Shown one piece after another: positions 24,328 to 39,586 of a DNA stretch of 50,888 nt. Source of the DNA: Prochlorococcus sp. AG-363-P15. GTDB lineage: Bacteria > Cyanobacteriota > Cyanobacteriia > PCC-6307 > Cyanobiaceae. The stretch spans positions 1 to 50,888 of the forward strand of contig QCGF01000002.1 in NCBI GenBank assembly GCA_003278175.1. Direction: 5' to 3'. The stretch's first letter is position 1. Each line of letters starts with the position of its first letter. A program made the position numbers and the translations under genes. The notes beneath the pieces are model-generated. The model had not been told where the DNA came from, ran no database searches, and saw only the letters and a list, made by a program, of their open reading frames with translations.

Positions 24328-24759
24328 ATGCCCATGCGAGCAAGTCCACCACGATTATTTATACCGCTTGCAGGTGAATACGTATCAGCAGGCTTTCCAT
24401 CTCCAGCCGATGACTATCTCGATGTTGGAATTGACTTAAATGAGCAACTAATTCAACATCCCACAAGCACATTCCTCCTTCGCGTCAACGGTGATTCCAT
24501 GACAGGGGCAGGGATCCATAACAACGATCTACTGGTCGTAGACCGCAGCCTCAATCCACACCCAGGCCAAATTGTAGTAGCAGTACTAGATGGTACTTTC
24601 ACCCTAAAACGACTGGTTTTCAAAGATGGGGCACTTTCTCTAGAAGCAGAGCACCCCGACTACCCACCTATTAACTTGCAGCGATACAACGAGGTCCAGG
24701 TCTGGGGAGTAGCAGTGTATTCAATTCATAACCTCAACAAATTAAAGCTACCAATATGA
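24328..24759 (+). CDS. umuD: UmuD-like S24 peptidase (SOS mutagenesis subunit)
   Basis: This 143-aa LexA/UmuD-type serine peptidase is the accessory subunit of DNA polymerase V. The self-cleavage bond is Ala21-Gly22 (VSAGFPSP). The catalytic pair is Ser57 in NGDSMTG and Lys94 in FTLKRL. The N-terminus before the cleavage site is short, as in UmuD rather than full LexA, which has a DNA-binding domain. ATG codons lie at 24328 and 24334. It overlaps umuC by 4 bases. Regulation is by the LexA box immediately upstream. Confidence 0.95.
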   Translation: MPMRASPPRLFIPLAGEYVSAGFPSPADDYLDVGIDLNEQLIQHPTSTFLLRVNGDSMTGAGIHNNDLLVVDRSLNPHPGQIVVAVLDGTFTLKRLVFKDGALSLEAEHPDYPPINLQRYNEVQVWGVAVYSIHNLNKLKLPI

Positions 24760-36321: not shown

Positions 36322-37782
36322 TCAAGGAATGAATTGACTCTTTGGTTTATTTGTCATCACGTCGGCAGCTTTCTCATACTGGTGAGCAACCTGCAACAAA
36401 CTCGATTCTTTAAGTACATTGGCAATGAGCTGGAGACCAACAGGCAATCCTGATTGATCAAAGCCACATGGAAGGCTAATAGCAGGAAGACCAGCTAAAT
36501 TTGCCGGAATAGTTAGCAAATCTGAAAGATACATTGATACTGGATCTTCAGAATGAGAACCAACTTTAAAAGCAGTTGTCGGAGCTGTAGGTGTTAACAA
36601 AATATCAGCCTTAGTGAAAGCATTTTCAAAGTCTTGGCGGATTAATGTTCTAACTTTCTGAGCTTTCTTGTAATAAGCATCAACATAACCAGCTGACAAA
36701 GCATATGTCCCAATCAAGATGCGACGTTTCACCTCAGAACCAAAGCCCTCAGTCCTACTTTTTGTTGTCATCGCCTCAAGACTGCCAGATTGTTGTGTGC
36801 GATAGCCATATTTGACTCCGTCATAACGAGCCAAATTTGCCGATGCCTCTGAGGGAGCAATGACGTAATAAGTAGCTATTCCATCATTAAATCGAGGACA
36901 ACTAACTTCTACCAATTCAGCACCAAGAGACTCAAGTAAATCTGCAGCGGCCAAAACCGAGTTCTTTACTTCACTTGATAAACCTTTTTGATCAAAGCAT
37001 TCTTTAATTAGCCCAATGCGGAGGCCAGCAACTGATTTTCCAAGTGAATCCGTAAAGCTAGGAACTGTAACTTTTAAACTAGTCGAATCTCGAGGGTCAC
37101 TCCCAGCTATAACTTGCAAGATTTCTGCAGTATCAGCGACGCTATTAGTAAAAGGACCAACTTGATCTAATGAGCTAGCAAAAGCGACCAATCCCCAACG
37201 ACTAACAAGACCATAAGTTGGTTTAAGTCCAACCACACCACAAAAAGAGGCAGGTTGCCTAATTGAACCTCCAGTATCAGAGCCCAAAGCAGCAATACAT
37301 TCACCTGCGGCTACAGCAGCAGCACTACCGCCTGAACTGCCACCAGGGACCCTAGTTGTATTCCATGGATTAGAAGTAGCACCAAAAGCAGAAGTTTCAG
37401 TAGAACTTCCCATTGCGAACTCATCAAGGTTCGTTTTACCTAGAAGAACTGCTCCTGACTGCCAAAGTTTTTCAGTAACTGTGGATTCATAAGGTGGAAC
37501 AAAATGTTCGAGCATTCGACTTGAACATGTTGTTTTTATTCCTTTAGTACAGAGATTATCCTTAATTGCTATTGGGATGCCAGCCAAGGGTGGAAGAGGG
37601 TCACCTGCAGCACGAGCGTCATCAATTCGTTTTGCATCTTTACGTGCCCTCTCTGAAGTCACCTCCAAGAAAGCATTTAATTTCCCATCAACCTGCTTAA
37701 TGCGAGAAAGCTTCTGATCAACTAATTCTCTAGCAGATATATTGCCGAGCTTTAGCTGCTCACGCAATTCGGCGATAGACAT
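36322..37782 (-). CDS. gatA: Asp-tRNA(Asn)/Glu-tRNA(Gln) amidotransferase subunit A
   Basis: This 486-aa amidase with the Ser-cisSer-Lys triad is Lys74 (IAIKDNL), Ser150 (GGSSGGS) and Ser173 ([12 protein letters not shown]). With GatB and GatC it converts Glu-tRNA(Gln) to Gln-tRNA(Gln), and in cyanobacteria this is the only route to charged tRNA-Gln. The full amidase core and C-terminal DUF-like stretch [18 protein letters not shown] are present. It lies between the frameshifted DUF1816 gene and dnaE, all on the minus strand. Confidence 0.97.
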
Positions 37783-37834: not shown

Positions 37835-38069
37835 TCAATAAGTAGTAAGTGGCTCACCTCTGCGTCCTCGAATCAAAGTGTGCTTAATTGAGTTAGAACC
37901 TTCTACAGAAAGATCTTCCAAGAAACTTGAAAGATTTAACCTGAGACTTCTACGAGTCAGGAATGGCCCATACCAATAAGTAACGTCTGGCGCACTGGTC
38001 TCAACCTTAGCCCACCAAGCAAAACCAAATTTATTACCGAAGCTGCGAAGCCCCCCTAATTGCCCCCAT
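37835..38069 (-). pseudogene. DUF1816-like gene with a single-base frameshift in a G6 run
   Basis: The minus strand from 38040 to 37835 encodes a DUF1816-type sequence: WWAKVETSAPDVTYWYGPFL, followed by a FLEDLSVEGSNSIKHTLIRG region and a REPLTT-like end, terminating TGA at 37835-37837. No ATG, GTG or TTG lies in that frame upstream of the conserved part before a TAG stop. In the other frame an ATG at 38069 gives M-G-A-I-R-G. Removing one G from the six-G run (38051-38056) would join ATG to the conserved part and give a normal 77-aa protein. Either a sequencing error, a real pseudogene or frameshifting could explain this. It lies 52 bases before gatA. Confidence 0.75.
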
Positions 38070-38158
38070 AAGGACTAAAGCATGGATTAACTATTCTGCC
38101 TTCTTACTAATGCATTATTAATTAAAGGATTGTATTCCCTGACGAATGAAAGTAGTTA

Positions 38159-39586
38159 TTAAAGTTGAATGTTCTCGTCAAAAAGGCCAGAATCACTTGT
38201 GGTACAAGGCTTTCCAGTGATTTCATTGACATATATATCTGAAACTGAGTCGAACTCAGACCCTGTAGAAATATTTTTGTCCTTGCTCTTTTCTTTAACC
38301 TGCTCATTCATTAAGTGTGATGATTCGCTCCCCTGTTGTGATAAGGATGCATATTTGGGACGAACCATTCTTGGTGAAGGAGCCTGCCCAGAGAGACCTT
38401 TCATCCAACCATTCCGAGCAACCTCATATAAGAAAACTGCCGTTGCCACAGAAGCATTCAAGCTAGGAGTCACTCCACGCAGAGGGATTCTGACCAAATG
38501 ATCACAATGCCGTCTGGTTACCAATGAGATTCCTTTCCCTTCCGAACCAGTCACAAGGACCAAAGGACCTTCGAGATCAACCTCTGGAAGAGTTTCGCTA
38601 CCCTCTTCTGCTAAACCAATAACGAGATAACCAGATTTTTTAAGTTCCTCAAGCGATCTATTTAGATTTACGACTCTCGCTACAGGTAAATGTTCTAAAG
38701 CTCCTGCTGCAACTTTTGCTACAGAGCCTGTCAAACCAGCACTACGTCGTTGAGGAAGCACTAAACCATGCGCGCCAAATGCTTCTGCAGAACGTACTAT
38801 TGCTCCCAAATTTTGCGGATCGGTGAGTCCATCAAGCGCTAACAAAAGAGGAGGTTCTCCTAATTCATTGCATCCTTCAATAAGAGTTGATAGATCAAGA
38901 GTTTCAGCAGAAGCGGTCTGAATTGCTATTCCCTGATGAACAGCTCCATTTGTTAACTGGCCAAGACGAGCCCATGTAACTTCCTCTACCAATACTCCGG
39001 ATGATTTCGCATCCCTAAGCAACTGAAGGAACCGCTGAGAATTTCTTAATTCAGGCGTGCACCAAATCCTGTGGAGTGGTCTTCCAGCTTCAAGAGCAGA
39101 TTGTGTCGCATGTCGCCCCCAAAGCATGTCATCAGAGGGACTTTGGCCATAGCCGGGTCCATTATTAGAAGTAATAACCTCCCCTTCAGGATATGAATTA
39201 CCATCCGTCTGACTGGCCAAAGATGTTCTATTAATTTGCAACCGATTTCTTACTTTTCGATCGATTGCCCTCCCTACAGCTCTTCTATTGGTAATTCTCC
39301 TGGAAGATGATGACCTTGATTGAGATCTCTCATTCTCATTTTCAAGTAATCCACCTCGCTCCTTCCCTTGTCGAATCTGGCGATACGGCCTATTTCTAGC
39401 AATTCCCCTTTGGGATTGTCTCTCACCCGTCCTTTTGTTCTTCGAAAAATAAGGACTACCTTCATCTGAAAAAGACTGATCAGCTGAAGATTTTCTAGGA
39501 ACAGGCCTTTTATCCTGCCTACTACGCTCCCCTATTCGTTTTGAGCCATGAGATTTGCCTGAACGACGGTCATAACGTGAATTCAT
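38159..39586 (-). CDS. SpoU/TrmH-family RNA 2'-O-methyltransferase with long basic and acidic extensions
   Basis: This 475-aa protein has a SPOUT core at about 153-395 flanked by unusual regions. The SpoU motifs are DGLTDPQNLGAIVRSAEAFG (252-271), VTGSEGKGIS (345-354) and SLNASVATAVFLYEV (375-389). The RNA_SpoU-binding stretch MLWGRHATQSALEAGRP (154-170) precedes them. This matches RlmB/TrmH enzymes (23S rRNA 2'-O-methylation; exact target not determined). Residues 1-150 are Arg/Ser/Gly-rich and probably disordered, and 396-475 are Ser/Asp-rich. It precedes mrnC in the DNA but lies behind it in transcription, with only 9 bases between the genes. Confidence 0.9.
   Translation of the reverse strand: MNSRYDRRSGKSHGSKRIGERSRQDKRPVPRKSSADQSFSDEGSPYFSKNKRTGERQSQRGIARNRPYRQIRQGKERGGLLENENERSQSRSSSSRRITNRRAVGRAIDRKVRNRLQINRTSLASQTDGNSYPEGEVITSNNGPGYGQSPSDDMLWGRHATQSALEAGRPLHRIWCTPELRNSQRFLQLLRDAKSSGVLVEEVTWARLGQLTNGAVHQGIAIQTASAETLDLSTLIEGCNELGEPPLLLALDGLTDPQNLGAIVRSAEAFGAHGLVLPQRRSAGLTGSVAKVAAGALEHLPVARVVNLNRSLEELKKSGYLVIGLAEEGSETLPEVDLEGPLVLVTGSEGKGISLVTRRHCDHLVRIPLRGVTPSLNASVATAVFLYEVARNGWMKGLSGQAPSPRMVRPKYASLSQQGSESSHLMNEQVKEKSKDKNISTGSEFDSVSDIYVNEITGKPCTTSDSGLFDENIQL

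Follow-up and report, generated by a model that had tools for sequence, protein, structure and literature searches.

Is the DUF1816 gene of Prochlorococcus sp. AG-363-P15 really broken, or does the break belong to the draft sequence rather than to the cell? The window, i.e. the whole stretch of 50,888 nucleotides analysed here, is contig C2 of a 1.11-Mb draft in 65 contigs, 57.39% complete. A sequence-only reading had proposed that the conserved DUF1816 frame has no start codon before a stop, that the only suitable ATG is shifted by one base and that deletion of one G at 38051-38056 restores a 77-aa protein; it left four causes unranked, namely sequencing error, fresh pseudogene, phase-variable homopolymer and transcriptional slippage. 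The features concerned are the following.

37835..38050, minus strand: conserved DUF1816 frame, 71 codons and TGA, without an in-frame start (frame reading, profile match)
38051..38056, minus strand: G6 run (C6 on the plus strand), one G above the G5 of the sister genome (comparison with the sister)
38067..38069, minus strand: counterpart of the ATG with which the gene starts in all six same-genus relatives, shifted out of frame by one base in the window (orthologue alignment)
38034..38069, minus strand: 11-codon out-of-frame ORF, MGAIRGASQLR then TAA, product of the extra G (translation)
38124..38144, minus strand: conserved leader block CGTCAGGGA...ACAATCCTTT, common to five aligned same-genus loci, a possible promoter judging by the alignment
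38093..38100, minus strand: candidate leader block GGCAGAAT, conserved in alignment and common to five aligned same-genus loci

We observed that the three structural claims are correct. The conserved frame lies on the minus strand and is flanked by an RNA methyltransferase gene (38159-39586) and gatA (36322-37782), both named by inspection of their translations. It occupies 38050 to 37838, 71 codons beginning with LRSFGN, and its stop codon TGA is at 37835-37837. Upstream of LRSFGN it reads S-L-W-G-Q-L-G-G back to a TAG, the whole being TAG-SLWGQLGG-LRSFGNKFGFAWWAKVE... to TGA. Between this in-frame TAG and codon 44 there is no ATG, GTG or TTG, and the earliest in-frame start codons are the TTGs at codons 44 and 59; an alternative start in the window's conserved frame was therefore rejected. 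The frame scores 71.5 bits against the PF08846 profile (cut-off 27), its residues 6-69 being aligned to positions 2-64 of 65, which makes it a member of the family. As it stands in the window it lacks a usable start and is not an intact ORF. The G6 run, found exactly at 38051-38056, shifts the sole suitable ATG (38069) by one base relative to this frame; this ATG opens MGAIRGASQLR, followed by TAA TAA, and with one G removed it gives MGAIRG plus the 71 residues, 77 aa in all. Were the sixth G genuine, translation from the native ATG would end after 11 residues, and hardly any DUF1816 protein, or none, would be made.

DUF1816 is a small, widely conserved cyanobacterial protein of unknown function. 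We found no NCBIfam match for it, no solved structure by sequence search and no paper naming DUF1816 by literature search. Its AlphaFold model shows a beta-beta-alpha-beta domain (pLDDT 82.5, good confidence except at the ends), and in a fold search with this model no Foldseek match fell below E 2 and Z did not exceed 4.6, hence no functional clue.

We then compared the locus with its same-genus orthologues. The nearest relative is a single-cell genome, Prochlorococcus sp. AG-463-F15 (genome G006, loci L032 and L068), which has ATGGGGGCAATTAGGGGGCTTCGC with G5, encoding MGAIRGLRSFGN. Its locus L032 reads ATGGGGGCAATTAGGGGGCTTCGCAGCTTCGG; the window is identical plus one G in the second run, and the two match base for base around the run save for this G, so that the frameshift is more than chance. 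An insertion in the first G5 run (38063-38067) was rejected, the sister having the same G5 there. The ATG is in frame in all six same-genus orthologues (the sixth, L070, from its translation), and when the window is aligned with L032, L069, L071, L072 and L073, the extra G is the only gap between the ATG and the domain end. In these relatives the run is G5, G4, ACGGG or AGAGG, each with a normal in-frame ATG, which indicates that it is not a maintained slippery site. Of 197 relatives, 184 have DUF1816, as do 141 of the 142 that are near-complete. An exact match to the site was not found in viral contigs.

By its own terms, the sequence-only reading would be contradicted by orthologues that use a different start in the conserved frame. 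Such orthologues exist in another part of Prochlorococcus: in 30 of 31 other loci (L033-L063) an invariant TTG stands directly before ATT-AGA, L039 having ATG instead, and many of these loci are without any in-frame ATG. The window's genus, by contrast, uses ATG, and the window has GGG where the TTG would align, so a TTG start was rejected there. The leader block CGTCAGGGA...ACAATCCTTT was not found upstream of L033-L065.

As a separate observation, in the L033-L063 loci the TTG is preceded by a short hairpin, which lies some 6-25 nt before it (positions ~1475-1492 in most loci), usually with a gap of 6-7 nt, for example TGGTCT..AGGCCA, GATCC..GGATC or GGCTT..AAGCC. In 17 aligned sequences 90% of the cells pair, and three of the six pairs are changed on both sides. 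In several species ATGs at this hairpin are out of frame.

The frame downstream of the run carries no other lesion. Over its 69 codons, the window and L032 differ with dN 0.090 and dS 0.674, a ratio of 0.134, while intact pairs gave dN/dS of 0.05 to 0.18 where dS could be estimated; this frame is under purifying selection (dN/dS 0.13). Seven amino-acid changes fall on the window branch versus three on that of L032, and the two are about equally far from L069 (dN 0.087 and 0.083, respectively), which shows no clear decay of the window gene.

Frameshifts were also surveyed across the draft, by matching about 976 kb of the window's genome (G000) to ORFs from 1.2 Mb of G002, a closed same-genus genome in one contig rated 100% complete, and from 386 kb of AG-463-F15. 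The in-frame matches cover 558 kb. The scan for internal frameshifts, which misses DUF1816 since its lesion is at the 5' end, gave one clear case, purQ on contig C6 near 24478-24485 (L168:4478-4485), GATAGGGGGGGGCAAAG. Here the run is G8, with one G in excess, as seven G would preserve the frame; purQ is intact in both references, which have no such run. To lose the de novo synthesis of purines would come at a high cost to the cell. The other apparent frame breaks (C10, C13 and C18) were rejected because they looked like shadow or non-coding ORFs, leaving two frameshifts in conserved coding sequence in 558 kb, DUF1816 and purQ. Among 558 gene starts checked, 39 were without an early start; apart from DUF1816 these seemed to reflect a different choice of start or a spurious ORF, and none of them was a further case of its kind. 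The draft has 80 G/C runs of at least six, 19 of them inside long ORFs and 44 spanned by homologous matches, the latter being an upper bound as it includes the DUF1816 run, across which an ungapped match extends.

As controls, the same was done with the two references. In AG-463-F15 we observed four apparent frameshifts in conserved genes over 240 kb covered (L132 ~18535, L130 ~8630, L133 ~4630 and L117 ~11080): these comprise one G added to a G8 run in a carotenoid-oxygenase-like gene, one A added to an A6 run in a sugar-kinase-like gene, and two sites away from long runs where a single base appears to have been lost. In the closed genome, with 553 kb covered, two flags were raised and neither was upheld: in both, the query ORF seemed to be extended into non-coding sequence at its 5' end. 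With the trigger gene left out, the two drafts thus have five frameshifts in about 798 kb against none in 553 kb, a modest excess with a probability by chance of about 0.07 by simple arithmetic. Similar frameshifts are therefore present in drafts of this type and absent from the finished relative, which suggests, in small numbers, that the pattern follows the type of genome rather than biology.

Taken together, these data point to an indel arising from amplification, sequencing or assembly, to which we give a probability of about 0.65. In the living cell DUF1816 would be intact, its run having five G and its translation starting at a plain ATG; the sixth G would stem from the whole-genome amplification, the sequencing or the assembly that produced a draft of single-cell type. 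The argument rests on the sister, identical but for one G, on the ATG in frame in all six same-genus orthologues, on the near universality of DUF1816 in relatives, on a dN/dS within the range of intact pairs, on purQ with its additional G in the same draft and on the frameshifts of the single-cell relative when none is upheld in the closed one. The window's draft is probably itself a single-cell genome, presumably from the published Prochlorococcus workflow, and its reads should show G5. For such single cells a mean of 3.0 indels per 100 kb was measured with benchmark cultures (PMC6122165), and in a large survey single, unclustered frameshifts with intact homologues were judged to be mostly sequencing errors (PMC3711429). 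Two points weaken the technical explanation: in the benchmarks, P. marinus single cells showed fewer indels than any others (PMC5519541), and Illumina errors would be expected in runs longer than six G. The G8 of purQ is more error-prone than G6 and may support a technical origin only by analogy.

The second of the four causes would be a genuine recent replication slippage adding one G and inactivating DUF1816 in this cell or strain. A very recent event is expected to leave a downstream frame without other lesion and with a normal dN/dS, as observed, and runs of such length are natural slippage sites, where indel frequency increases with run length (PMC3812077). We nevertheless consider such a fresh pseudogene less likely than a technical error, though second among the explanations, DUF1816 being near-universal in relatives and the like lesion in purQ of the same draft pointing to a shared technical cause.

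Slippage and phase variation, also put forward by the sequence-only reading, found no support: the G-run is conserved in no relative examined and the intact orthologues use a plain ATG. A genuine G6 with the protein still produced, either because transcription slips on the G-run or because ribosomes occasionally shift by +1, is improbable. In its favour are the conservation of the downstream frame and the bypass of frameshifts in short runs, G and C included, which was measured in the laboratory in a drift experiment (PMC3812077), but in that experiment G6 indels were retained far less often than A8, and in known programmed slippage the runs often have eight bases or more (PMC3711429). The run itself varies among relatives that all have a normal in-frame ATG, and the joint conservation in orthologues of a slippery run and a split frame, by which programmed frameshifting or slippage is recognized, was not found. 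Very improbable, too, is a broader version in which +1 G indels in G-runs of core genes (purQ, DUF1816, a carotenoid oxygenase) are genuine in some low-light type Prochlorococcus, and the proteins are made all the same through an RNA polymerase that slips on G-runs. Poly-C and poly-G runs do mediate phase variation in other bacteria (PMC3711429), but a switch is highly improbable for a run only six long, conserved in no relative, in a small core protein with no sign of a surface role.

If G6 recurred in the reads and in other cells, this would mean either that a core cyanobacterial gene has recently been lost or that slippage takes place on a G-run, which would be unusual. More generally, a conserved gene without a start in a single-cell draft is to be read with caution, as a probable indel and not as gene loss or recoding.

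The locus resembles the homopolymer indels of single-cell assemblies, in being an isolated additional base in a homopolymer of a conserved gene and in sharing this kind of lesion with purQ and the AG-463-F15 genes. It is also like the DUF1816 (PF08846) genes of Prochlorococcus and other cyanobacteria in its full domain match, and like those of same-genus relatives in the position of its ATG, from which it differs in that the window's extra G puts this ATG out of frame.
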